This document shows, piece after piece, positions 19,537 to 36,913 of a DNA stretch of 36,913 nucleotides. Below the pieces are notes generated by a model that saw only the letters and a list, made by a program, of their open reading frames with translations, did no database searches and had not been told where the DNA came from. The stretch spans positions 1 through 36,913 of the IMG/VR virus record IMGVR_UViG_3300037796_000051; one strand, given 5' to 3'. This DNA is from a virus. The translations under genes and the position numbers were made by a program. The stretch's first letter is position 1, and every line of letters starts with the position of its first letter.

Positions 19537-20876
19537 TGGACTTCCAGCAGCGCGCCGCTGAGATTGAGCGCAAACGGCAACAGCGCATTCAGCGCGATCA
19601 GGATGAACAAACCGACGCGGTGTTAGCACAGGCAAACGACATTGCTGAGAACGTCGTTAACTCTGCCGATATCCGGCTCGATCAGTTGCTCCAGACGGGC
19701 GCCACAGCGGGCCAGGTGGTGACGTGGAATAACGTCACGGGCGAATGGGAGCCTGCTGACGCATCGAGTTTGACAGACCCGACGACGACAGAGGGGGATG
19801 TTATCTATCGCGACGGCTCTGGATTGCAGCGGCTTGGTATCGGCACAGCAGGACAGCGGCTCACCGTCAATAGTGCAGAGACGGCGCCAGAATGGACCGA
19901 TGATCCGGCATTTAGAAATCTTATCCTCAATCCGAATGGCGCTATTGCACAGAGACTAGCTGATCCCACTACAGCTAACACTATCGATGATACTGACTAT
20001 GGGGTTGATCGGTGGAAGGTTTTGTCAGAGTTGGCAAATAGTGTAAGTGTAATAAGGAGAAATGGCAATATCCAAAAATATTCAGTAAGATTGAGGCAGG
20101 AAAGTACTACATCTCAACAAATAGGCACCGCACAGTATATTGAAGGCGAAAACTGCCAACACCTGAGAAATAAAGAAGTAACACTATCCGGCTCTTTGCG
20201 TTGTGATAATAATGTAACAGTAAAAGTAGTTGTCGTCCAATGGACTGGTACCGAGGATACCATAACAAACGATCCCATATCCTCCTGGGGCTCTACCGTG
20301 ACACTTGCCACTAATTTTAGTGTGGCAGGGACAGAGAAGTCTATCAGTCTGACTGCCAACACCTGGCAAGATTTTAGCCATACCGTCACGTTAAATGCTA
20401 GCTTTAGAAATCTATGTATATTGTTTTATACAACAACTGACATAGCACGATTGACCACACTAGATTATGAGGCGATAAAGTTGAGTGAAGGCGACTTTGC
20501 CACACCCTTCGAGCCGCGCCCGATTGGCATGGAACTGGCGTTGTGCCAGCGGTATTATGAAGAGATCGGCGGGGAAGACAACTTTCAGTCCTTCGGTATC
20601 GGGTACGTCAATAATTCGACTAGTGTCCGCGTGCTCGTGCCTTTCATTACGACCAAACGTACCACACCAACGATGTCGCTCTCAGCAGCCGGAGACTTTC
20701 AGATTATTGAAATCGGCTTGACCACCGCAGACAGTTCAGCCTTCTTTAGTCCCACGCCGATCAATGCCTTGCTGCAATTAGGAGCTACGGGTGCTTCATT
20801 TACGAGTGGGAATAGTGCAGCAGCACGCGCAGCTAATACATCAGACGCTCGAGTTATTGCAGATGCGGAGCTTTGA
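19536..20876 (+). CDS. Tail fibre-like protein with a carbohydrate-binding-type domain
   Basis: GTG 19536 overlaps the previous stop, with AAGGAAGGGGG upstream. The frame opens earlier, at GTG 19497, but that start lacks a ribosome site. The product (446 aa) starts with a coiled-coil (QQRAAEIERKRQQRIQRDQ). A Gly/Thr linker follows, with a repeat-like GQVVTWNNVTGEWEPAD. A jelly-roll-type domain spans NLILNPNGAIAQRLADPT to LSEGDFATPFEPRPIGMELA. The end ALCQRYYEEIGGEDNFQS is a motif of many tail fibre C-termini. About 20000-20470 is clearly AT-richer than the flanks. Confidence 0.65.
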   Translation: MDFQQRAAEIERKRQQRIQRDQDEQTDAVLAQANDIAENVVNSADIRLDQLLQTGATAGQVVTWNNVTGEWEPADASSLTDPTTTEGDVIYRDGSGLQRLGIGTAGQRLTVNSAETAPEWTDDPAFRNLILNPNGAIAQRLADPTTANTIDDTDYGVDRWKVLSELANSVSVIRRNGNIQKYSVRLRQESTTSQQIGTAQYIEGENCQHLRNKEVTLSGSLRCDNNVTVKVVVVQWTGTEDTITNDPISSWGSTVTLATNFSVAGTEKSISLTANTWQDFSHTVTLNASFRNLCILFYTTTDIARLTTLDYEAIKLSEGDFATPFEPRPIGMELALCQRYYEEIGGEDNFQSFGIGYVNNSTSVRVLVPFITTKRTTPTMSLSAAGDFQIIEIGLTTADSSAFFSPTPINALLQLGATGASFTSGNSAAARAANTSDARVIADAEL

Positions 20877-20877
20877 C

Positions 20878-21108
20878 ATGGCAGACTATCAACTCCTCGA
20901 GGGTGGCGGCGTCAAGCACGTCCCAAGCGGGCGCAGCATTCCAGACGACCCGCGCAACCGGCACTGGCAGCAGTATCAAGACTGGCTCGCAGCGGGCAAC
21001 ACGCCGGAGCTGGCGCCGTCTGCCGTGCGCGAGCCGCAACCGTTTCGAGTGGCGCGCCCGGCTGGTGTGGCGCGGGAATATTATCAGAGAGAGAGGATAT
21101 ATGGATAA
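20878..21108 (+). CDS. Small tail-associated protein, 76 aa
   Basis: The ATG at 20878 starts two bases after the fibre stop. The frame is open upstream as a shadow of the fibre gene. VPSGRSIPDDPRNRHWQQYQ and DWLAAGNTPELAP resemble the common phage motif 'IP.DP.N..W..Y..WLA.GNTP' found in fibre-linked proteins. The role is unknown, perhaps fibre assembly. It is coupled to the next gene by a short overlap. Confidence 0.6.
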   Translation: MADYQLLEGGGVKHVPSGRSIPDDPRNRHWQQYQDWLAAGNTPELAPSAVREPQPFRVARPAGVAREYYQRERIYG

Positions 21109-21406
21109 GGCAACATTGGTGCAATCGATGGTTGATGCAGGCACGGCGATCGCACAGGCACACGAGGCGCTCCAGACGGCGTATGCAATTTACTTCGACA
21201 ATGAATATAACGTAGGCGATCCACAAAGCCCGAATGCGAACCGGATCACTGACGCCGATTTGACAGGCGCGGGTTTCCCGTTCACGGCTGCGCAGCTTGC
21301 AAGCCTGGTGACGTTCGCAGAACAGTTGAACAACCTGATGGAAGGCCAGGCGACGGCGACGAATGATTACAGCGCCACGCTCAACGTCGTGCGAAGTGTG
21401 GTATAA
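21101..21406 (+). CDS. Hypothetical protein, 101 aa, last late gene
   Basis: The ATG at 21101 follows GAGAGAGAGGAT. The product is helical at both ends (MDKATLVQSMVDAGTAIAQ, LASLVTFAEQLNNLMEGQAT), with a loop containing NANRITDADLTGAGFPFT. The general shape is of a small fibre/tail accessory protein. The gene ends within an extended -10 element (TGGTATAAT) and closes the late operon. Confidence 0.6.
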   Translation: MDKATLVQSMVDAGTAIAQAHEALQTAYAIYFDNEYNVGDPQSPNANRITDADLTGAGFPFTAAQLASLVTFAEQLNNLMEGQATATNDYSATLNVVRSVV

Positions 21407-23004: not shown

Positions 23005-23030
23005 AAAAAAAGCCCGCCACCTCGGCGGGC
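23005..23030 (-). terminator. Intrinsic terminator of the partition operon
   Basis: On the minus strand GCCCGCC pairs with GGCGGGC around a 5-base loop, and seven Ts follow (23005-23011 read in reverse). It ends the operon that starts at parM, just after the 53-aa membrane gene. Confidence 0.85.
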
Positions 23031-23044
23031 GGTGGTAGGGTGGG

Positions 23045-23206
23045 CTACATCATATCTCGATAAACGAAACAGATAGTGATGCCGAGCCAGGCAATGGTGC
23101 TCAGGGTAAACACCCCGAACGGGAGATCATACGTAAAAACAACATACATCCAGCAACCTATCAGGATGACATGTAATACCAGTTCAACCGTCATCACAAG
23201 TTTCAT
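23045..23206 (-). CDS. Small membrane protein, 53 aa
   Basis: The start ATG at 23206 has GGAGAGGGGGA upstream. The frame is open earlier, but that part overlaps the end of the previous gene. Two hydrophobic stretches span about residues 4-24 (VMTVELVLHVILIGCWMYVV) and 31-48 (GVFTLSTIAWLGITICFV). It could be a holin or an accessory to the two membrane proteins upstream. It is last in its operon, with a terminator just after. Confidence 0.65.
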   Translation of the reverse strand: MKLVMTVELVLHVILIGCWMYVVFTYDLPFGVFTLSTIAWLGITICFVYRDMM

Positions 23207-23220
23207 ATGTCCCCCTCTCC

Positions 23221-24093
23221 TTACGGCTTCACAGCTAGCATACATGCCTCTGACTCAACGTTCCGGCGTGCTATGCTGTAGCCATCTGGTACGGCGCCGC
23301 TAAAACACCGGCACTCATCAGTATTGCACGCAATCGTCCAGCCGACCGACTTTGCCGTCGCTGCCACCTCAACCTCAACACCTGCCGATGTTCGCACGGT
23401 GTCGGGCGGCAGTACCGGCGCGGCGGTAGCGGTTGGCACGGGTGTCTGCACAGGCGGTGCGAGCGGTGCGGGCGGTGCGGGCGGTGCGGGTTGCTCTACG
23501 ACAATGACGTGCGGCGTCTGTGTCGGCGCTGGCGTCGGTTCTGCAAGATCGGGCGCCTCTATCCAGAGATGGCCGTCAATCTGGACGTAGCGTCCGTATG
23601 TGCCGGTCACAGGCCCGCCGATAGGGATATCCTGTGCGTACTCCCCGCCTGGCGCGTAGTAGGCCGCGACCATCGGCACATTTGTCGGGGTAGCAGTGGG
23701 CGCCGTTGTGGGTGTCGGCTGTACTGCTACAGGCTCATTCTGTCGAGTGAGCGCCGCGAACGACGCCACGGCAGCTATCACGAGCGCACACGCGATGCCC
23801 GCTGCAATCCAGGGCATAGGGACGCGGCGCGTGCGTTGTGTGCGGGCGCTCGCGGGCGCGTGCGGGGGCATCTGTCCGTCTGTCTGTGCTGTTTCGGACA
23901 CGGGTTCGTCGGCTACCCACGCACATACCTGCGTCGTGCTAGAGTATCGCACAGTAATATGCCCTGCAATTTCCCATTCCCGAATTAAATTGCCCGCTTT
24001 TGTCTGTTTTATGTTAAGCACGCGCTGCAAGTCGGCGCGGCGCCACTCTCCAGAGAGTTCGGCACGGGCAATAGTCAACAATTCGTCACTCAT
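23221..24093 (-). CDS. Membrane-anchored winged-helix protein with a P/T-rich exterior part
   Basis: A 290-residue protein. Residues 1-60 read as a winged helix (SDELLTIARAELSGEWRRAD, then LNIKQTKAGNLIREWEIAGH), similar in pattern to FtsK-gamma-type domains. Residues 93-115 are one membrane span preceded by RTRRVP. Then come a P/T-rich linker (about 125-140, 185-230) and two small domains, the last with Cys 256, 261, 263 and 284, probably outside. This layout (HTH in the cytoplasm, sensor outside) suggests a one-component regulator or a DNA anchor. The start overlaps the next upstream gene. Confidence 0.65.
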   Translation of the reverse strand: MSDELLTIARAELSGEWRRADLQRVLNIKQTKAGNLIREWEIAGHITVRYSSTTQVCAWVADEPVSETAQTDGQMPPHAPASARTQRTRRVPMPWIAAGIACALVIAAVASFAALTRQNEPVAVQPTPTTAPTATPTNVPMVAAYYAPGGEYAQDIPIGGPVTGTYGRYVQIDGHLWIEAPDLAEPTPAPTQTPHVIVVEQPAPPAPPAPLAPPVQTPVPTATAAPVLPPDTVRTSAGVEVEVAATAKSVGWTIACNTDECRCFSGAVPDGYSIARRNVESEACMLAVKP

Positions 24094-24782
24094 ACGGTAT
24101 ACTCCGGTAGTAGTTTATTGAGCACGTCTGACACAGTTTGTGGCGTCCATTCGCCTGCTGTTTTCTCACGACGCCCGCTAATCAAGCCACAGCGGGCGAA
24201 TAACTCTGCGAGGCGCTGCGCTTCCTGCTCACTCGCAGCCTGCCCGATGCGGAGCTGTCGCGTGCCACCGAATGCAGGCGCGTTGAGCGAGAGAAACAGC
24301 GGCTTCTGGAGCGCCCGCACACTATATGGGCGCGTGGCATCGTTGCGACGCTGGTGCAGAGCGAGCGCGGCGAGGATGATCTGGCCTGGATTGTCGGCGG
24401 TGATCGTCGTCTCGCTTAGCACCTCTGTTGTTACAACTCCCTGAGCATTCCAGTGCGCCTCCAACACTGCCTCGCGGCGCTCGCGTTCGTAGCGCAAATC
24501 GGCGCGCCACTTCTCGATATGATGCCACACAAATAGCATCACAAAGCTCCACGCGAGCAAACACGTACCTCCCGCGAGCATCCCCGCGAACTGGAGCGCG
24601 CCGCCGGGGCCATGCATCGGAAACGACGCGCCGAACAGGAGCACGCCCATCGCACCCACCAGGGCGGCCAGACACGTCACACCCACCGCGAGCGCAGCCT
24701 CGCGGGCATCGAGGCGCGGCGGCTCCTGTGCCAGTTCGTAGACGCTCTGTTGTTTCGAGTATTCAACGTTGTTGAGTTGCAC
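24090..24782 (-). CDS. Two-TM membrane protein with cytoplasmic C-terminal domain
   Basis: GTG 24782 follows CGGAGGGA. In the 230-residue product, about residues 28-52 (AALAVGVTCLAALVGAMGVL) and 62-88 (LAGGTCLLAWSFVMLFVWHH) are hydrophobic. An amphipathic charged helix (EKWRADLRYERERRE) and a C-terminal domain follow, with repeats of helices (EQEAQRLAELFARCGLISGR) that could be a winged helix. It overlaps the 290-aa gene (ATGA). Proposed to act with it near the membrane. The function is not known. Confidence 0.65.
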   Translation of the reverse strand: MQLNNVEYSKQQSVYELAQEPPRLDAREAALAVGVTCLAALVGAMGVLLFGASFPMHGPGGALQFAGMLAGGTCLLAWSFVMLFVWHHIEKWRADLRYERERREAVLEAHWNAQGVVTTEVLSETTITADNPGQIILAALALHQRRNDATRPYSVRALQKPLFLSLNAPAFGGTRQLRIGQAASEQEAQRLAELFARCGLISGRREKTAGEWTPQTVSDVLNKLLPEYTV

Positions 24783-24797
24783 AGTGTCCCTCCGTAT

Positions 24798-24898
24798 CTA
24801 TGCTATGATGGGGCTGGCGCGCAGCTGGCGGTGTGTCCCTCCGCCAGTGCCCTGCTTCCTCAGGGCAGCGCGCCTCTCTGTGGACTAGTATAGCATAG
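24798..24898. ncRNA. Three-way-junction structured element
   Basis: Within 24816-24874, GGCGCGC pairs with GCGCGCC (P1, 7 bp). Inside it CTGGCGG/CCGCCAG (24825-24831 with 24841-24847) and TGCCCTG/CAGGGCA (24848-24854 with 24861-24867) form two more perfect 7-bp stems, with only two unpaired bases at the junction. Flanking 9-bp arms CTATGCTAT (24798) and ATAGCATAG (24890) could extend it. Either strand can fold. On the minus strand it is the 5' leader of the two-TM gene. On the plus strand an extended -10-like TGCTATGAT (24801-24809) would start RNA at about 24816, the first base of P1. Confidence 0.65.
24887..24895 (-). promoter_or_regulatory. Extended -10-like element ahead of the 230-aa membrane gene
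   Basis: TGCTATACT on the minus strand, with no clear -35. RNA would start near 24880 and would carry the three-way junction before the GTG start at 24782. It could give an internal start in the partition operon. Confidence 0.4.
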
Positions 24899-24899
24899 C

Positions 24900-25100
24900 T
24901 CACAGCGTGAATGTGTCATCATCATCATCAGGCGACTGTGGCGGCTGTGGCGCGTTCTGTTGCTGTATACCGCGCAGTAGGGCCGCCTTTACATCGTTTT
25001 GGCGTTTCCGTAATGAGAGGCTGTCGAGCCATTTGGCGATGGCGTTGTCGCTCTCATCGTCCAGATAGAGCAGCAGTGTATAGCGGCGCGGCTCAGGCAT
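24900..25100 (-). CDS. parR: ParR-like partition adaptor, 66 aa
   Basis: The ATG at 25100 overlaps the parM stop (8-base overlap). The upstream extension of the frame is a shadow of parM. MPEPRRYTLLLYLDDESDNA starts a short strand followed by two helices (IAKWLDSLSLRKRQNDVKAA), as in small ribbon-helix-helix ParR/StbB proteins. The C-terminus DDDDDTFTL is acidic and could contact ParM, as the C-terminal tail of ParR does in known systems. It is assigned by its place directly after the actin-like gene and its size; sequence identity is low. Confidence 0.65.
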   Translation of the reverse strand: MPEPRRYTLLLYLDDESDNAIAKWLDSLSLRKRQNDVKAALLRGIQQQNAPQPPQSPDDDDDTFTL

Positions 25101-26145
25101 CGTCACGGCCCCACTTCTGCACAGCCATTTCTGCATATCCCCTGACAGGCGCCTCGTGTGGCGCGTGTTTTTCTGGCATTCCCATCGGCAGTTTTCCGTG
25201 CCACGTTGCGCGAATGGACGGCCCGAACGTCGTATCTGTTGCGCCGCCTCCAACAACTAGCAAATAATGCGTTGAGAACCCTTCAAAATGGGCACGTATC
25301 TCCTCATGTGCGCGTGCCCAGAGACTATCACGAAGGTCGTCAATCTCAGGCGCGATGCTCTCATCCTTGCCGTCAATGGTCACAACCCGCTCTGCAATGG
25401 CCCGATCAACCTCCCAGAGTTCCGGCAGACCCGGCGCGCCTTGCAATCGCTGGAGTAACTCGGCAACCTTGCTACGTAGCGTCTGGACGCCAAACCGCAA
25501 CGCTTTAGAACGTCGGTAGATTTCTTGCATCTCACTGCTGCCATCGGCGCGGCGTTCGGGCCGGAGCGCGATCAAGTCGGTGGTAAATGTACCCACGTCA
25601 ATGCCAATAATGTTGGCCTTATGGAGCGGTCGCTTCTGGAGTGCCTGTTTCAGCTCGGCAGGAGTATGTGCGCTGAAATAGAGCACGGCGCCGCGCGGCT
25701 GCGAGGTCACATGCACGTCTGTGATATTCACACGGTAGCTCGCGTCCGCTCGCGTGAACTCATGTGAGCCTGTGAAAAAGTCTTGAATGTCGCGTTTCAA
25801 TGCGCGATATGCTTCCGCGTTCGCCCCCGCGACCATCCGAATGGTGTACTCTCCAGGCGGGAGTAGTTCGGAAAGTGCGGCGTAGAGGCGGATGTGCGCA
25901 TCTGGCGACGTGTAGCGGTAGTTGCTCGTGGCATAGGCGGTGGCGCCCTGTGCGCGGGCCGCATCGCCTACAAGATACTGATTACGATTATGACCGATAA
26001 CAATCACATCAGGGCGCAATAGGTATTCTTCATCCATGCCTGCCTCAACGGGTAGCACTAGTGCTGGTATCGCCGTGACCTGCATTCCATTGTCCGCTAC
26101 ACCCGCCTTTGTCAATCCAGCTCCATCATCATACACGACATGCAT
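25093..26145 (-). CDS. parM: ParM-like actin-family ATPase
   Basis: A 350-residue protein starting at ATG 26145 (GAGGAGGGG upstream). The actin-superfamily motifs are in order: VVYDDGAGLTKAG (phosphate-1, about residues 3-15), GIDVGTFTTDLIA (phosphate-2, about 181-193) and YLLVVGGGATDTTFG (adenosine motif, about 294-308). The length fits plasmid ParM/Alp proteins rather than chromosomal MreB. It would form filaments that push ParR-bound centromeres apart. It shares an operon with parR and lies downstream of three 11-bp repeats. Confidence 0.8.
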   Translation of the reverse strand: MHVVYDDGAGLTKAGVADNGMQVTAIPALVLPVEAGMDEEYLLRPDVIVIGHNRNQYLVGDAARAQGATAYATSNYRYTSPDAHIRLYAALSELLPPGEYTIRMVAGANAEAYRALKRDIQDFFTGSHEFTRADASYRVNITDVHVTSQPRGAVLYFSAHTPAELKQALQKRPLHKANIIGIDVGTFTTDLIALRPERRADGSSEMQEIYRRSKALRFGVQTLRSKVAELLQRLQGAPGLPELWEVDRAIAERVVTIDGKDESIAPEIDDLRDSLWARAHEEIRAHFEGFSTHYLLVVGGGATDTTFGPSIRATWHGKLPMGMPEKHAPHEAPVRGYAEMAVQKWGRDDA

Positions 26146-26160
26146 ACACCCCTCCTCACA

Positions 26161-26193
26161 ACAACTTATAACAAACTTATAAGTCAATTATAA
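26161..26193. repeat. Three tandem 11-bp repeats, candidate centromere (parC)
   Basis: ACAACTTATAA (26161-26171), CAAACTTATAA (26172-26182) and GTCAATTATAA (26183-26193) are exact tandem 11-mers sharing the TTATAA core. Plasmid parC sites bound by ParR are built from short tandem repeats close to the helical pitch, placed just before parM. Here they also overlap the -10 of the parM promoter, so ParR could autoregulate it. Confidence 0.7.
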
Positions 26194-26195
26194 CA
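26187..26195 (-). promoter_or_regulatory. Extended -10 promoter of the parMR operon
   Basis: TGTTATAAT on the minus strand. A TTGACA-like box at 26201-26206 lies only 8 bases away, too close to serve as a -35, so the extended -10 is the main element. The start would be near 26180, within the repeats. Confidence 0.6.
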
Positions 26196-26228
26196 CGTTG
26201 TGTCAATCCTGCACAGTCCAGGCAAAAC

Positions 26229-26252
26229 GTAGCCCCGCTTCAGCGGGGCTAC
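26229..26252 (-). terminator. Terminator hairpin of the operon ending at 26309
   Basis: GTAGCCCCGC pairs with GCGGGGCTAC around a 4-base loop (10-bp perfect stem). On the minus strand GTTTTG follows. It separates the small-gene operon from the parM promoter. Confidence 0.7.
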
Positions 26253-26308: not shown

Positions 26309-26515
26309 CTATACGTCACCTTCGATATACTCCAGACCAAGAGCTGCCATAATGTCATTAATTGCCTTTACATAGCCGTTGAGGTACGTGCCGTGTTCGG
26401 CGTCGTCTGTCTCGTTTGCCTGCTTAGCGATGCGATCTGCGTTCTTGCTGAGTGTCCGACCAATGTATTCGGTGTCGCCGTTAAAAAGCGCCTGCTTTAA
26501 ACTTTCGTACTTCAT
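26309..26515 (-). CDS. Hypothetical protein, 68 aa
   Basis: The ATG overlaps the upstream stop, with GGAAGGGGACGA before it. An all-helical acidic protein (MKYESLKQALFNGDTEYIGR, YLNGYVKAINDIMAALGLEY). No family is recognised. It is the last gene of a unit promoted at 27811-27840. Confidence 0.55.
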   Translation of the reverse strand: MKYESLKQALFNGDTEYIGRTLSKNADRIAKQANETDDAEHGTYLNGYVKAINDIMAALGLEYIEGDV

Positions 26516-26754
26516 TCGTCCCCTTCCTTCCTTCTCCTATACCGTTGTCGTTCGGATAACTCCTCAAGCGGCTTCAATTGTCGCTGCCCCCGCTGCGCAG
26601 CGTAGCGTTCCACCGAGGCGCGGGTGACGCGGCCACGGTTGCCGACGGCAGGCGCGGCGTCCAGTTTGCCCCATTGCACGAGCTTGCGCACATAGTCGGA
26701 GCGGACACCCAACAGTGCAGCGGCTTCGCGGTAGGTGATGGTGTCGTCGGTCAT
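26512..26754 (-). CDS. Excisionase-like HTH protein, 80 aa
   Basis: MTDDTITYREAAALLGVRSD and YVRKLVQWGKLDAAPAVGNR follow the HTH_17/excisionase pattern (..Y.EAA.LLG......V..L...G.L.........R..). The C-terminal half is helical and basic (RYRRRKEGDE). A DNA-binding regulator is likely. A relic of a similar gene start is at 27005-27058. Confidence 0.7.
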   Translation of the reverse strand: MTDDTITYREAAALLGVRSDYVRKLVQWGKLDAAPAVGNRGRVTRASVERYAAQRGQRQLKPLEELSERQRYRRRKEGDE

Positions 26755-28012: not shown

Positions 28013-28201
28013 CTAGTCTCTGCGGCGAGCTTCGTCGCCGTGTAGGTCATCCTTGCTATGCTGCCTACGCACCAGGCGGTAGCGTTTGCCGTTGCTGCCA
28101 ATAACAACAGGCGCATAGTCGCGCCGTTGTTGGCGTGACAGGCGCTTCAGGTACAGCCGGCGCGCTCGCTGTTCTGGTGTTTCGTTTGTGCGCTTGCTCA
28201 T
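28013..28201 (-). CDS. Basic small protein, 62 aa
   Basis: The ATG at 28201 overlaps the stop of the dCTP deaminase gene. MSKRTNETPEQRARRLYLKR and LSRQQRRDYAPVVIGSNGKR: highly basic, helical, then a short strand. Probably binds nucleic acid. Unknown. Confidence 0.55.
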   Translation of the reverse strand: MSKRTNETPEQRARRLYLKRLSRQQRRDYAPVVIGSNGKRYRLVRRQHSKDDLHGDEARRRD

Positions 28202-28758
28202 ACATTCCCCCGGCGCGGCAGCATTGCCGTGGCCTGCCACTCGGGGGCAGGCGTGTTGTATCGGCCTGTGTAGAGGCTGCTATTACTCTCGACACGATAG
28301 AATTTGATTAATCCGATACGTAGCCCGGCGTATACCCGGATGGAAACGTTGTTGTGGTTGTACAGCTCGAGTGTCCACCGGCTGCAATACCCGGCGTCGC
28401 CAATGCCGGCGCTCACGTGGACGGTGATACCCCAACGAGCCACGGTCGAACGCGTCTCGAGGTGCGGCTCCAGCCACGGCACCGTAGTGCCGACGTATTC
28501 GTCGGTGTGTGCCAGTGCAAACCCGCCCGGCGACAGTATCACCGGGTCGTGTTCTGTGCAGTTCTCCAATAACATATAGTAGTCGTGTGGGTCACAGTGC
28601 CGCATGTCAAGCGGCGCGCTATTCGGGCGCGGCACCCAGAACGCCGCGCCTAGATGCACGTCAATATGTGTCTGGATAGCAGCAGCGTCGGGCGCGGGAT
28701 CACACACGATGTGGCCCGCGTCAAGCGCCGCCTGTATCGCCTCATTTCCCAGGATCAT
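28198..28758 (-). CDS. dCTP deaminase / dUTPase-family protein
   Basis: A 186-residue protein of the dUTPase fold. ILGNEAIQAALDAGHIVCDP is the standard Dcd start (..I...L..G...I.P). Further on, TRSTVARWGITVHVSAGIGD corresponds to the 'RSSLGR' motif, and YCSRWTLELYNHNNVSIRVY holds the catalytic-type Glu in TLE. It converts dCTP to dUTP, possibly in one step towards dUMP for dTTP synthesis. Sited in the repressor-led operon, away from replication genes. Confidence 0.75.
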   Translation of the reverse strand: MILGNEAIQAALDAGHIVCDPAPDAAAIQTHIDVHLGAAFWVPRPNSAPLDMRHCDPHDYYMLLENCTEHDPVILSPGGFALAHTDEYVGTTVPWLEPHLETRSTVARWGITVHVSAGIGDAGYCSRWTLELYNHNNVSIRVYAGLRIGLIKFYRVESNSSLYTGRYNTPAPEWQATAMLPRRGNV

Positions 28759-30177: not shown

Positions 30178-30951
30178 CTACACAAAGCACATCCCCATAC
30201 CACACTGCCTATTCTCGCCTTTGTCGGGTGTGTCGATGTCGGCCTCTGCTAGTGGCACACGGCCACGGTGCAGCCAGAGAGGGAAATCGTCTACGGTGTC
30301 CAGTGTTGCGGCGTCTCTCAATTCTTCGTCTAATTGAATGGCCCTTTCCCATTCCTCTGGGTAGTTGTCGCGGATGTGGCGCCATTGCGCGTTGGTGCGA
30401 TGAGGACACATCCAACATGCCGACTTCGGCGGCTCTGGTAAGCCCTCTGCCTGGATAATGTTCAAACAATCCTGCCGGGTCAGGTTGAGTTCGAGCAGAG
30501 GATAGCGGATGCTGATCCACTTCTCGCTGTCCTGAAGCGTAGCCCGGCGGCGCTCGTCAAGCGAAAACCCTATCCAGGCAACAGCACTGGTCACTCCCTG
30601 GGCGCGTAGCCAACGATTACGCACGCGTTTTTTCCACTCGATGCTGCACCATGTCCGTAGTTGCCCGGTTGCAGTGTGCATCGGCATAAGCACATCACCC
30701 TGGTGGCTGTACAGGTCGACGGTAGACAGTTCGTGTGGCGCGATGTCCACGTGTAGCCCGTGGCGCTCCAGGAACGGTTGCATCACTTCGTCCAAATAAT
30801 CCCACGTGCTAGTTGCCTCGCGCCCGGTATCGGCACATACGATGTAGTCAGGCCGCTCCAGGACGCCGCGTGCCACCAGGACACACATAGCGACACTCTG
30901 CACGCCGCCGCCATAACTTAAGACGTTCGTTCTATGGTCATTCACATTCAT
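30178..30951 (-). CDS. PP-loop / PAPS-reductase-like enzyme
   Basis: The ATG at 30951 is chosen because the protein then begins just before RTNVLSYGGGVQSVAMCVLV, a PP-loop (GGGVQS). YIVCADTGREATSTWDYLD matches the adenylate-binding region. LRTWCSIEWKKRVRNRW and, near the C-terminus, SACWMCPHRTNAQWRHIRDN provide cysteines. The chain ends CGMGMCFV. Phages carry such ATP-pyrophosphatase-type enzymes, perhaps in DNA or tRNA modification. None of its partners is visible, so the substrate is unknown. Confidence 0.7.
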   Translation of the reverse strand: MNVNDHRTNVLSYGGGVQSVAMCVLVARGVLERPDYIVCADTGREATSTWDYLDEVMQPFLERHGLHVDIAPHELSTVDLYSHQGDVLMPMHTATGQLRTWCSIEWKKRVRNRWLRAQGVTSAVAWIGFSLDERRRATLQDSEKWISIRYPLLELNLTRQDCLNIIQAEGLPEPPKSACWMCPHRTNAQWRHIRDNYPEEWERAIQLDEELRDAATLDTVDDFPLWLHRGRVPLAEADIDTPDKGENRQCGMGMCFV

Positions 30952-31135
30952 ATACCCCCACAATGCTATTCCACAGCGCAACCTTGCGGCGCTGGCGGTA
31001 GTCTTTCTGTGTTCGCCGCTTATACTCGCGGCTGTATTCGCGGCGCCGCTCGCGGTTGCGCTCTCTCCAGCGGCGTTGTGCCTCCTTGACGCGCTCCGGA
31101 TGGCGCTTGCGGTATCGCGTGGCACGGTCGCTCAT
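30938..31135 (-). CDS. Highly basic small protein, 65 aa
   Basis: RYRKRHPERVKEAQRRWRER and NRERRREYSREYKRRTQKDY are Arg-rich helices, as in the basic linker of some HNH-type phage proteins. No HNH motif is present. It is coupled on both sides. A nucleic-acid-binding role is likely. Confidence 0.5.
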   Translation of the reverse strand: MSDRATRYRKRHPERVKEAQRRWRERNRERRREYSREYKRRTQKDYRQRRKVALWNSIVGVYECE

Positions 31136-31885: not shown

Positions 31886-32096
31886 TGGTCGTCTCCTTTG
31901 TTGCTTCGTTGAACTGTTCATACCGCTCCACGATAGAGCGGGCCTCTTCCATCCGTCGCGTGGTGCCGATGATCATATCATCACACCACACGTCTGCCAC
32001 GCCTGTATCGAGATGTAGCAGTAGTGCCGAGCCGCGGTAGAAATTCGGACACAATGACTTGTCTAAAAATCGCAGCCAGGGACGCGAATGTTTCAT
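31878..32096 (-). CDS. Hypothetical protein, 72 aa
   Basis: Strong ribosome site (GGGGGAGGA), start overlapping the repressor stop. MKHSRPWLRFLDKSLCPNFY then LLLHLDTGVADVWCDDMIIG: alpha/beta. Unknown. First gene after the repressor. Confidence 0.5.
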   Translation of the reverse strand: MKHSRPWLRFLDKSLCPNFYRGSALLLHLDTGVADVWCDDMIIGTTRRMEEARSIVERYEQFNEATKETTNE

Positions 32097-32362
32097 TCCT
32101 CCCCCTCTGTTACAATATGCTCCAACAAATCATCCAGTTCAACAATGTACTCCAACAGATGGCCGGGTTGAACGTTGTAGTATGCGCAAAGTCGTGCGAT
32201 CATGTCGCCCGTTGGTGTCTCGCCTGGGTTGTTCTCAAAAAATGACACGCGCGATCGACTGAAGCCAATTTCACGAGCCACATCTGACACGGAAAGATTT
32301 TCGCCCAATTCCGCTGCTCGTTGCAGGCGAACATCTCTCAATTTATTCACAAGCTTCCCCAT
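32093..32362 (-). CDS. XRE-family repressor, 89 aa (cI-like)
   Basis: Start ATG 32362, after AGAAAGGAGAGGGGG; the frame extends about 66 codons further but that part lies in the promoter region. VSDVAREIGFSRSRVSFFEN is the Cro/cI-type helix-turn-helix, with a preceding N-terminal helix (KLVNKLRDVRLQRAAELGEN) and the C-terminal DLLEHIVTEGEE dimer-type helix. Unlike lambda cI it has no peptidase domain, so SOS self-cleavage is not expected. It sits opposite the early promoter and is likely the lysogeny repressor. Confidence 0.85.
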   Translation of the reverse strand: MGKLVNKLRDVRLQRAAELGENLSVSDVAREIGFSRSRVSFFENNPGETPTGDMIARLCAYYNVQPGHLLEYIVELDDLLEHIVTEGEE

Positions 32363-32395
32363 AAACCCCCTCTCCTTTCTCCTCTGCACAGGCTC

Positions 32396-32424
32396 ATTGT
32401 ATCTCATCACAACCGTTTTGTCAA
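32396..32424 (-). promoter_or_regulatory. Repressor promoter (leftward)
   Basis: Minus strand: TTGACA (32424-32419) and TACAAT (32401-32396), 17-base spacer. The start lies about 27 bases before the repressor ATG. It drives the repressor-led operon of small genes. Confidence 0.8.
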
Positions 32425-32465
32425 CATCCCCATACGCTTCGTAAAACAACCTAGACAAAGCGGTT
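32411..32465. promoter_or_regulatory. Inverted operator pair in the divergent control region
   Basis: AACCGTTTTGTC at 32411-32422 and GACAAAGCGGTT at 32454-32465 are inverted copies differing at one of 12 positions. Each overlaps the -35/spacer of one of the two divergent promoters, so one repressor could control both directions. Confidence 0.7.
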
Positions 32466-32480
32466 ATAGTATGATACAAT
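32452..32480 (+). promoter_or_regulatory. Early rightward promoter
   Basis: TAGACA (32452-32457) and TACAAT (32475-32480), 17-base spacer, start near 32487. It drives the replication operon beginning at 32526. Confidence 0.75.
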
Positions 32481-32525
32481 AACAGCACGTCGCAACGGGC
32501 GGCGCCACACAAAGAGGAGCATCGG

Positions 32526-32675
32526 ATGAACCACAAGCACGTTGAGTACGACACGATCACAGGCGACTATGCCGCGTATCTGGACGGCGACCTTATAGGA
32601 TTTTATCCTACGCGCCAGACAGCGCAGGCGGCGCTGGATGATATCGTTTTCAAACGTTTGAAAGGGCAAAGGTGA
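32526..32675 (+). CDS. Early protein, 49 aa
   Basis: First gene after the early promoter, with AAAGAGGAG. MNHKHVEYDTITGDYAAYLD through GFYPTRQTAQAALDDIVFKR: short strands and a C-terminal helix. It overlaps the next start by one base (TGATG). Its place suggests a regulator (Cro-like role), but no HTH is evident. Confidence 0.6.
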   Translation: MNHKHVEYDTITGDYAAYLDGDLIGFYPTRQTAQAALDDIVFKRLKGQR

Positions 32676-34543: not shown

Positions 34544-35731
34544 ATGGCAGATTACGACAATGCACGTGCTGCAATACAGGAACTCCTAGAGGGTGCGACA
34601 GAACAGCCTGCTACCGGGCTAGACGCGTGGCAGCACGTCTATGATGATCTCTACTCCATCTATCAAAGCGACGGGGTAGAGGGTGTGCGTCGTGCAGCAA
34701 TGGCAGACAAAACGATAGTCAAGTTGATTGCAAGCGGCAAGGACTTGACGTATACCACGGGGCAACCTGTCCCCGTCAGTGCCCGCGATTTAGCATACAA
34801 AGACATTCCTCCTACACGGTACTACCTGGATGGTATCCTGCGCACGGGGTTGGCGCTATACATCGGCAACCCAGGGATAGGCAAGACGCCCGCTCTGTTG
34901 CAGTTGGCAATTGCGCTCACCTACGGGGGCCGTTGGATGGGGGCATTCCAGTGCCGTAAAAGTCGCGTGCTGTACATCGGTGTCGAGTATGACGAAGCCT
35001 ATATGCAGGAGTTGTTGATTGATAGCCACGGCAGCAAGGACTTGCCCGATGGCCTGTTCATCCACACCGTTGAGACATTCACTCCGCCCACCAGCGAGGC
35101 CGATAGTATCGAGATGATGGAGTTCTATATTTCCACAATGCAGATCGACGTGGTGATTATTGACACGTTTTCCGGATTTTTACCCCGCGAAAAGTTTAAA
35201 CAAGACAAATATCGCGGGGATTATGCCGAGTTCCTCGCGTATCATCGCATTAGCCTGAAGCATAGCGCGCTCATCCTCGGTTCATGGCATGGCACCAAAC
35301 GCGACCCAGACCCAGAGACGGCATACAACGGGGGCCAGGGCATGTGGGGCAGTGCTGGCGGTGGGCGCTTGACGATGTTCCGAGACAACGACGAAGAAGT
35401 GCGGTTGCGCTCGCAACTCCGTGGACACGAGCGACAGGAATGGTTACTCCAGCAGGTGCGCCTGGGGGAGGCTCGGCAGTGGGCAGTGGTAGACGCCGAC
35501 CCAGAGCCGATTTTTGGGAGCGACATACAACGGGACGTGTACCGCGTGGTGAAACAGTACAGCACGAAAGCGGAGCCGATCACGCCGGCGGGCGTGATGG
35601 GTATTCTCAAAGGTGACGACCCAACAAGTTCCATTAAAGAAGGCACCGTGCGACAGACGATGAACCGGATGGCAGATCGGGGCTTCTTTACCAAGGCGGG
35701 CGGCGGCTACATTGTTACAGGGCAAAAGTAG
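34544..35731 (+). CDS. RepA-like hexameric helicase (RecA-fold ATPase)
   Basis: A 395-residue protein. Walker A GNPGIGKT at about residues 108-115, Walker B IDVVIIDTFSG with Asp near 207. LGSWHGTKRDPDPETAYNGG corresponds to the sensor/linker region of AAA_25/RepA-type helicases. The N-terminal 60 residues are helical; the C-terminal 100 (VYRVVKQYSTKAEPITPAGV, GTVRQTMNRMADRGFFTKAG) form a winged helix. Likely the replicative helicase. It sits directly next to the iteron array. Confidence 0.75.
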   Translation: MADYDNARAAIQELLEGATEQPATGLDAWQHVYDDLYSIYQSDGVEGVRRAAMADKTIVKLIASGKDLTYTTGQPVPVSARDLAYKDIPPTRYYLDGILRTGLALYIGNPGIGKTPALLQLAIALTYGGRWMGAFQCRKSRVLYIGVEYDEAYMQELLIDSHGSKDLPDGLFIHTVETFTPPTSEADSIEMMEFYISTMQIDVVIIDTFSGFLPREKFKQDKYRGDYAEFLAYHRISLKHSALILGSWHGTKRDPDPETAYNGGQGMWGSAGGGRLTMFRDNDEEVRLRSQLRGHERQEWLLQQVRLGEARQWAVVDADPEPIFGSDIQRDVYRVVKQYSTKAEPITPAGVMGILKGDDPTSSIKEGTVRQTMNRMADRGFFTKAGGGYIVTGQK

Positions 35732-35914
35732 CTGTAACGCAAAAAGCCTGTAACAGCTGTAACAGGGCGCGAATATGGCATACCAAAGACAAATGAGCTG
35801 TAACGCAAGTTGTAACAGGGCTGTAACAGCTGTAACGCTTATAGAGACTAAGCATCAATAAGCGTTACACCTGTTACACCTGTTACAACTGTAACAGGTG
35901 TTACAAGCGTTACA
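35714..35914. repeat. TGTAAC iteron array, candidate replication origin
   Basis: Fourteen copies of TGTAAC or its reverse complement GTTACA occur in about 200 bases, many 9 bases apart. Forward copies start at 35733, 35749, 35758, 35799, 35811, 35822, 35831 and 35890; reverse copies at 35714, 35864, 35873, 35882, 35900 and 35909. A perfect 12-bp inverted repeat (35831-35842 with 35858-35869) marks where orientation flips. The first copy lies inside the helicase gene and the last ends 30 bases before the next start. Confidence 0.85.
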
Positions 35915-35943
35915 GCGAGTGAGGGAAGTTGAAGGGGTGTGAG

Positions 35944-36456
35944 ATGACCATTAAACCTATCGAGACACACTACAAGGGGTATCGGTTCCGAAGTCGGCTT
36001 GAGGCACGGTGGGCGGTGTTTTTTGATGCGTTGGGGTTGCGATGGGAATATGAGCCAGAAGGGTATGACCTGGGCAGTGTCGGGTGGTACTTGCCTGACT
36101 TCCGTGTCCAGTATCCCGGCAGGGCACCAGATGAGGCACACGCACGATGGATTGAAGTCAAGGGGAGTAAACCATCACAGGATTTTCTGCGGCATATGGA
36201 GTTTGCTAGGAATGTTGCTGACTTGACGGTGGTATGTGGACTGCCAGAATGCAAAGCATACACATGCTATACGTTTCTTGACAGTGAAGATGATGTACGG
36301 ATTGTCGATGCGTTACTGTGGTCAACCAAAGGGCGGATGTGGTTTGCTCCATCTGATAATGATGTTGCATATTATCTTAGTAATGAACCATTGTATATCA
36401 CAGCCATCAATGCCGCCCGCGCCGCACGTTTTGAGCACGGGGAGAATAGAAAATGA
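35944..36456 (+). CDS. Phage nuclease-like protein (PD-(D/E)XK-type pattern)
   Basis: ATG 35944 with GAAGGGG; an upstream TTG has no ribosome site. In the 170-residue product, ETHYKGYRFRSRLEARWAVF and FFDALGLRWEYEPEGYDLG match a phage family with a YLPDF...WIEVKG core (WYLPDFRVQYPGRAPDE, HARWIEVKGSKP). The D...EVK arrangement is that of PD-(D/E)XK nucleases. The C-terminal half is helical. Likely acts in replication or recombination. Confidence 0.7.
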   Translation: MTIKPIETHYKGYRFRSRLEARWAVFFDALGLRWEYEPEGYDLGSVGWYLPDFRVQYPGRAPDEAHARWIEVKGSKPSQDFLRHMEFARNVADLTVVCGLPECKAYTCYTFLDSEDDVRIVDALLWSTKGRMWFAPSDNDVAYYLSNEPLYITAINAARAARFEHGENRK

Positions 36457-36913
36457 TCAACCTTCTCGATCTCATTCCCAACCTGAAGCGTGCCGCTGGT
36501 ACAAACGGCGGCGAATACCACGGCCCGTGTCTGTTCTGTGGCGGGCATGACAGGTTGCGTGCATGGCCGGAGCCTGCAAATGGTGATGCACCGAACTGGA
36601 CATGCCGCCAGTGTGGCAAGGGTGGGGACGCGATCAACTACGTGCGCTACCGCGACGGCGTGGGGTATCAGGAGGCGCTACGTATTCTTGGAGTGTCACA
36701 ACCTGAACCACGCGACATTGCCAATACGGTACCAGCCCCACAACCAACAGCACCACCGTGTGATGCATGGCAAGCGCGCATGCGTCGCTTTGTCGGATGG
36801 ACACAAGAACAACTGTGGACAGACACAGGGACATACCAGGGTGGAAGTCCGCTCGACTATCTGCGGCGGCGTGGTTTGACTGATGCAACGATCCGCAGCG
36901 CAAACATCGGCTA
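36453..36913 (+). CDS. Primase-like protein with zinc finger (N-terminal part)
   Basis: ATG 36453 overlaps the previous stop (ATGA). The frame runs off the window after about 153 codons. MINLLDLIPNLKRAAGTNGG is followed by PCLFCGGHDRLRAWPEP and WTCRQCGKGGDAINYVRYRD, a CHC2-like zinc finger of phage and bacterial primases. GGSPLDYLRRRGLTDATIRS precedes the expected catalytic (TOPRIM) domain beyond the window. It is probably the replicative primase working with the RepA-like helicase. Confidence 0.75.
   Translation, partial: MINLLDLIPNLKRAAGTNGGEYHGPCLFCGGHDRLRAWPEPANGDAPNWTCRQCGKGGDAINYVRYRDGVGYQEALRILGVSQPEPRDIANTVPAPQPTAPPCDAWQARMRRFVGWTQEQLWTDTGTYQGGSPLDYLRRRGLTDATIRSANIG

Follow-up and report, generated by a model that had tools for sequence, protein, structure and literature searches.

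The question raised by this viral DNA is whether a short cassette, consisting of an actin-like ATPase gene, a small overlapping gene and a set of upstream repeats, is a partition locus, and whether it serves a phage that persists in its host as a plasmid. The DNA analyzed, hereafter the window, is the whole IMG/VR virus record IMGVR_UViG_3300037796_000051, which comprises 36,913 bases, is classed as linear and is a probable fragment. Positions 24900-26202 on the minus strand are well supported as a predicted type II (ParMRC-like) partition locus by the order of motor and then adaptor gene, by 11-bp repeats upstream, and by a second cassette of the same layout in related phages. The elements of the locus are as follows.

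24900-25100, minus strand: adaptor (ParR-like) gene, 66 amino acids, downstream of the ATPase gene, with an overlap of 8 nt
25093-26145, minus strand: actin-like (ParM-like) ATPase gene, here named type A, 350 amino acids, matching Pfam ALP_N and PHROG 691
26157-26202, minus strand: putative centromere/operator (parC-like), three 11-bp tandem repeats within an imperfect dyad
26229-26252, minus strand: terminator-like hairpin immediately preceding the cassette

The ATPase gene starts with an ATG preceded by a GAGGAGG ribosome site. Its product matches Pfam ALP_N at 2.9e-15 (57.2 bits, cut-off 26.3) and PHROG 691, "partition protein", at 4.1e-26, with a further match to MreB-like_C (23.9 bits) under the cut-off of 27.8. 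Residues G8, G10, T12, K13, D183, G185, T188, D190 and GGGA 299-302 are the same in this protein and in the type-B ATPase described below, and we take them to be the phosphate and adenosine motifs of actin. Searches of solved structures by sequence returned nothing meaningful for the type-A ATPase, and CorM (4.4e-4) for a joint profile of the two ATPases. The type-A protein had no match in a phage collection of 50,697 records and matched, weakly, one of 72,556 records in a plasmid collection. The best NCBIfam match of both ATPases, PRTRC system protein D (TIGR03739), was rejected on its score (47.4 versus 214.8 bits).

The ATG of the adaptor gene lies within the overlap with the end of the ATPase gene. 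The adaptor matches Pfam Plasmid_stab_B, presumably the family that covers StbB/ParR of R1-type plasmids, at 1.2e-4 (22.2 bits), and its homologs in three type-A relatives score 23.0-23.9 bits, all under the cut-off of 25. An AlphaFold model of the adaptor, with a predicted local distance difference test score (pLDDT) of 70, begins with an extended stretch, continues with two helices and ends in a loose acidic tail, an order which fits, without proving, a ribbon-helix-helix (RHH) monomer. Foldseek gave no significant fold match for this model (E >= 2.5); rows 5-7 of its nine (6kyt, 7ycv and 7ycw, E 5-6) are antitoxin-type entries, two of them with RHH in the title, and 6kyt is assumed to contain an RHH chain. 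Nothing was found in solved structures with the adaptor profile. The protein ends in the acidic tail DDDDDTFTL. At least five acidic residues among the last 14 occur in two of the 48 window proteins, namely the adaptor and the helix-turn-helix (HTH) protein at 32093-32560, and a DDDDD-type run is present in the adaptor alone of these two. The type-B adaptor also ends with a DDDDD run followed by F within two residues, and such a tail might attach to the end of the filament or to a protein of the host. The shared tails (24900-24930; L053:7211-7253) are reminiscent of the acidic tip of single-stranded DNA-binding protein (SSB); the phage's own SSB ends in EGEGDMPF.

The three tandem repeats upstream of the ATPase gene (26163-26173, 26174-26184 and 26185-26195) are spaced by exactly 11 bp, have TTATAA as the centre of each copy, and are enclosed by the imperfect 46-bp dyad CACAAC...GTTGTG (26157-26202). 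Within the 115 bp that precede the gene, none of 1000 dinucleotide shuffles reached the highest three-copy tandem score found at period 11, and none of nine other periods tested stood out. The three-TTATAA pattern, which was derived from the site itself, has a single occurrence in the window and was absent from all 100 shuffles, also when two mismatches were allowed, and the exact site pattern was found in three viral records, identical to the three with a type-A ATPase. The repeats are kept in all four type-A records, the 33 repeat bases of the three relatives having one to three differences from the window, whereas the DNA further upstream diverges far more. In this way the ATPase with its putative nucleotide-binding motifs, the coupled ParR-sized gene, the three in-phase repeats and the compact type II locus that they form, all of them claimed in the original prediction, were corroborated.

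These repeats could also be read as an operator and nothing else, one that controls an autoregulated promoter, with the small gene encoding a plain repressor and the actin-like protein acting alone. The first repeat contains TGTTATAAT, which by eye resembles an extended -10 element and was not called by a computed scan, so that the repeats overlap a -10-like sequence and adjoin the start region; moreover, they number just three, and a ParR fold of the adaptor is unproven. Known ParMRC centromeres, however, double as operators. The binding of R1 ParR requires just two 11-bp repeats (PMC9426499), and in the relatives motor, adaptor and site are replaced jointly. We regard a purely operator role as very improbable.

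The joint replacement became apparent in G004, a related phage record of 47,348 bp whose portal protein is 95% identical to that of the window. The type-A ATPase has no match in G004, and the same locus is occupied by another ATPase gene.

L047:10159-11118: actin-like ATPase gene, here named type B, 319 amino acids, in G004

This protein scores above the cut-offs of both ALP_N (39.9 bits) and MreB-like_C (40.8 bits), matches PHROG 691 at 5.9e-34, and found ParM 3js6 (E 0.017) in the solved-structure search. Its gene is overlapped by a gene for an adaptor of 99 amino acids with no Pfam match, and is preceded by 11-bp repeats built on TGTTGCAC, unlike the type-A repeats in sequence, with a period-11 score reached by one of 1000 shuffles. 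The ATPases are 93-99% identical within types and, by alignment, 27-28% identical between types (BLASTP E 0.030), and no meaningful similarity exists between the two adaptors. Comparing the profiles of the two ATPase types with each other (E 0.025) was uninformative, the profiles having an effective number of sequences (Neff) of 1. Twenty-five phage records match the type-B ATPase at E <= 0.01; on two plasmids with a type-B-like ParM, neither downstream gene has a Pfam family above cut-off. Immediately upstream of the type-B cassette, G004 encodes a complete DNA polymerase III beta clamp with three Pfam domains (L047:8839-9948).

In order to survey the locus, we used the rightmost gene of the tail operon (20873-21406) as a query, which matched seven records besides the window; one of them, L061, stops about 120 bp beyond this gene and was left out of the count. 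All seven records that reach the locus, the window included, carry a cassette of one type or the other: type A in the window, G001, G002 and G003, and type B in G004, G018 and G019. Both types occur under each of the numbers 3300037504 and 3300037796 in the record names, which we take as metagenomes, so that the two types co-occur at the level of the sample and not of the cell; neither number turned up in the literature searched.

The boundaries of the replacement were examined by BLASTN around the locus in the 12 type-A/type-B pairs (4 x 3), and the sequence of the downstream junctions was inspected directly for three pairs. Between G001 (A) and G018 (B), 1,835 bp at 87% identity start no more than three bases past both adaptor stop codons. 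On the other side, the comparison of G002 (A) with G004 (B) gives a match of 54 bp (92.6%) that ends 66 and 75 bp before the respective ATPase starts, and a further 1,993 bp at 91.6% slightly higher upstream. Some pairs lack one edge, other small genes being inserted beside the cassette; the window and G004 have no upstream match close to the cassette, and their downstream match lies directly past the adaptor stop in the window and about 1.4 kb further on in G004. Because homology resumes just after the adaptor stops and ends just upstream of the repeats, the exchanged unit is, on these alignments, the site, the motor and the adaptor together, and the hairpin at 26229-26252, of which an equivalent is common to type-A and type-B phages, marks its upstream edge. 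In its virion proteins the window is nearer to the type-B phage G004 (95% in the portal, 79% in the tape measure) than to the type-A phage G002 (62% in the tape measure, portal not found), whereas the ATPases of the window and G002 have 95% identity. Judged by these identities, cassette type does not follow the kinship of the virion genes.

This swap is best explained by selection for another partition specificity, which would let related phage-plasmids share a host. The broader proposal is that of an integrase-less family of phage-plasmids which swaps its whole actin-type unit as a precise cassette and so forms partition "incompatibility groups" whose prophages can reside together, a view for and against which we find the balance about even. 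As for the cassette itself, it is fairly likely that it segregates the phage genome while this persists as a low-copy plasmid. Dimers of the 66-amino-acid adaptor would bind the three repeats and would thereby also repress the operon promoter located there; the free adaptor tail would capture the tip of an actin-like filament driven by ATP, whose growth would push sister genomes apart ahead of division. Repeat binding, filament capture, plasmid-like lysogeny and incompatibility are all inferred.

A filament of this kind could alternatively move replicating phage DNA within the cell during lytic growth. SPO1 is a lytic phage, and SPO1-like Bacillus phages carry actin-like genes; moreover, the exchange of a co-adapted motor, adaptor and site is predicted by such transport as well. 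An analogous three-part system exists in AlpA/AlpC/alpS of the Corynebacterium prophage CGP3, in which a phage actin-like protein, a DNA-binding adaptor and sites in the operon promoter region transport the excised prophage DNA (PMC4446434). That system differs, however, in that its adaptor gene comes first, an order not encountered here, in that the CGP3 prophage is integrated, whereas the present phages yielded no integrase, and in that it acts in DNA transport and replication after induction (PMC4446434). Two points speak for a plasmid prophage over lytic DNA transport: motor and adaptor genes stand in the ParM/ParR order, the opposite of AlpA/AlpC, and a swap of specificity among phages of the same samples is what selection through partition incompatibility would produce, as demonstrated for Clostridium perfringens plasmids (PMC9426499), and is less well explained by transport. 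We consider transport unlikely.

The plasmid reading also depends on the integrase question. No match to PF00589 (tyrosine recombinase) was found in the window, in agreement with the original prediction, but the absence carries little weight, the window being a fragment that also yielded no terminase. The type-A relative G003 has 48,856 bases and is probably complete, circular or permuted, though listed as linear without end repeats, because its ends overlap exactly by 120 bp (L007:1-120 and L009:14737-14856). None of four recombinase families, PF00589, PF00239, PF07508 and PF00665 (integrase, resolvase, large serine recombinase and rve), has a match in G003, a result that applies to this relative and not to the window, itself a fragment; as controls, these models were positive in 14, 13, 4 and 8, respectively, of 14 known genomes. 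Ten open reading frames from the stretch of G003 that the window lacks include KilA-N, terminase, a methylase with a weak ParB_N match, DUF5662, amidase, primase/AAA and a helix-hairpin-helix protein; no integrase was present among these ten, nor by PHROGs among ten G003 reading frames, some small reading frames lying outside the scans. PF00589 was absent from the window and G001-G003 (0 of 4) and from 14 further related records, many of them fragments (0 of 14), and PF07508 and PF00665 gave nothing in the eight records searched.

Integration by another route, with the help of host Xer or a recombinase that escaped recognition, or by an integrase that the assemblies have lost, would make the cassette an accessory. 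Such a route might be hinted at by an excisionase-family HTH protein encoded two genes upstream of the cassette (26512-26754; TIGR01764, 39.8 bits, cut-off 28.8), a domain that is also common in other regulators; in addition, the window is a fragment and most of its genes have no known function. Against it stand the recombinase searches just described, and the fact that, at the sensitivity of the scan, none of 87 candidate stretches for the type-A ATPase and none of 256 for the terminase was confirmed as a relative in 84,980 bacterial and archaeal species genomes. We consider integration by such a route improbable. An attempt to name the host from the terminase, the G004 beta clamp and the portal was dropped, the matches being distant and spread across many groups.

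It is important to mention the observations that weigh against a plasmid prophage with a ParMRC-type locus. The excisionase-family protein is a mild counter-sign to a lifestyle without integrase, and no plasmid-type Rep family was found among the proteins scanned. The type-A ATPase reaches 22.2 bits with the NCBIfam ParM model (NF010498, cut-off 417), its AlphaFold model, built from an alignment of seven rows, has a pLDDT of 42.5 and is unusable, and the RHH fold of the adaptor is weakly supported, its scores lying below the Pfam cut-off and outside significance in Foldseek. The actin-like genes of the SPO1-like phages belong here too, and in the distant relative G005, a fragment of 33 kb, the 4.9 kb that follow the tail-fibre gene contain no cassette. 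Partition genes alone are no proof of a plasmid prophage, and linear phage DNA can also yield circular contigs (PMC8026635). Taking both sides together, plasmid-like lysogeny is the more likely reading. The interpretation in the original prediction is thus supported in part: the type II partition locus is well supported and the plasmid lifestyle is putative.

Comparison with known systems places the locus as follows. The parMRC centromere of plasmid R1 comprises ten repeats; the present locus differs from it in having three and in encoding an ATPase too distant for the NCBIfam ParM model. Plasmid prophages with a ParM-like protein and an RHH protein have already been published (PMC8026635). 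Among them, the Bacillus phages IEBH and vB_BtS_B83 resemble the present phages in being tailed phages of about 50 kb with a ParM-like motor and a small adaptor; no recombinase is listed for IEBH, and two Xer-type recombinases are given for B83, whereas none was found here (PMC8026635). Both differ from the present phage, whose type-A ATPase has no match in the phage collection and whose adaptor has only 66 amino acids.

Exchange of partition specificity is known from the pCW3-like plasmids of Clostridium perfringens, close replicons with alternative parC-ParM-ParR sets, whose ParM proteins are >90% identical within families and 15-54% between them (PMC9426499), values to be compared with the 93-99% and 27-28% given above. 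Those plasmids are conjugative, and their specificities were demonstrated by binding and co-residence tests (PMC9426499), whereas in the present phages two types were seen and specificity is inferred. The parABS loci of cluster A mycobacteriophages are similar in that integrase-less phages carry, in a fixed place, a cassette whose partition proteins vary among relatives, and different in that they are of type I (ParA ATPase) and replace integration cassettes (PMC7157519), whereas here partition replaces partition; a 2016 paper on parABS specificity and incompatibility is cited in PMC11652158. Exchange of partition systems has been proposed as an escape from incompatibility (PMC10879196). In a literature search of partial coverage, made by title and the start of the abstract, no description was found of phages exchanging partition cassettes of type II. 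If the proposal is true, the family would be the type II counterpart of the cluster A parABS and C. perfringens ParMRC systems. The two cassettes would represent a natural pair of minimal (about 1.3 kb), probably orthogonal cassettes for actin-based partition, whose adaptors are very short and whose sites have three repeats, at one locus and in the same samples; this makes partition-based exclusion between phage-plasmids directly testable and offers a clean test case for incompatibility-driven exchange.

Around the cassette, the window is arranged in three blocks. Portal, head and tail genes occupy the plus strand from 105 to about 21.4 kb and include, by profile annotation, portal, head protease/major head and tape measure; small genes follow on the minus strand up to 33.4 kb, and beyond it ERF recombinase, SSB and primase-type genes lie on the plus strand. 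A terminase was absent from the scans of the larger genes of the window, whereas the relative G003 encodes terminase and amidase. The interval of the original prediction, 23005-26206, was too wide, since its partition cassette is confined to 24900-26202 on the minus strand and 23005-24782 belongs to neighbouring genes. These, and the regulatory gene further on, are as follows.

23045-23245: small open reading frame inside the predicted interval
23221-24093: neighbouring gene, no Pfam family above cut-off and no PHROG
24090-24782: neighbouring gene, no Pfam family above cut-off and no PHROG
32093-32560: Cro/CI-type HTH gene

The last of these agrees with the predicted cI-like repressor. As for the predicted iteron origin, TGTAAC/GTTACA hexamers are dense at 35714-35914, which holds 14 of the 25 copies in the window, several at 9-bp spacing, and form an iteron-like array, a candidate origin. 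No comparable TGTAAC cluster was found in G001-G004 (G001 being covered over 20,000 of its 20,848 bases). The replication module at 34544-36911 (AAA protein, nuclease-like protein and the start of a primase zinc ribbon) seems also to be exchanged among these phages, since tblastn at E <= 1e-4 gave no match to it in G002-G006.

Of the two adjacent proteins encoded at 23221-24782, one has a proline/threonine-rich stretch after a hydrophobic segment and the other has hydrophobic segments close to its start; the protein of 24090-24782 is 97% identical in G004, versus 36-37% in G002 and G003. In G005, three adjoining pentapeptide-repeat-like proteins, named by eye (L050:11595-14234), replace the right arm of the window. 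Finally, dCTP deaminase-like and phosphoadenosine phosphosulfate (PAPS) reductase-like genes can be observed in the window at 28198-28758 and 30178-31125, respectively.

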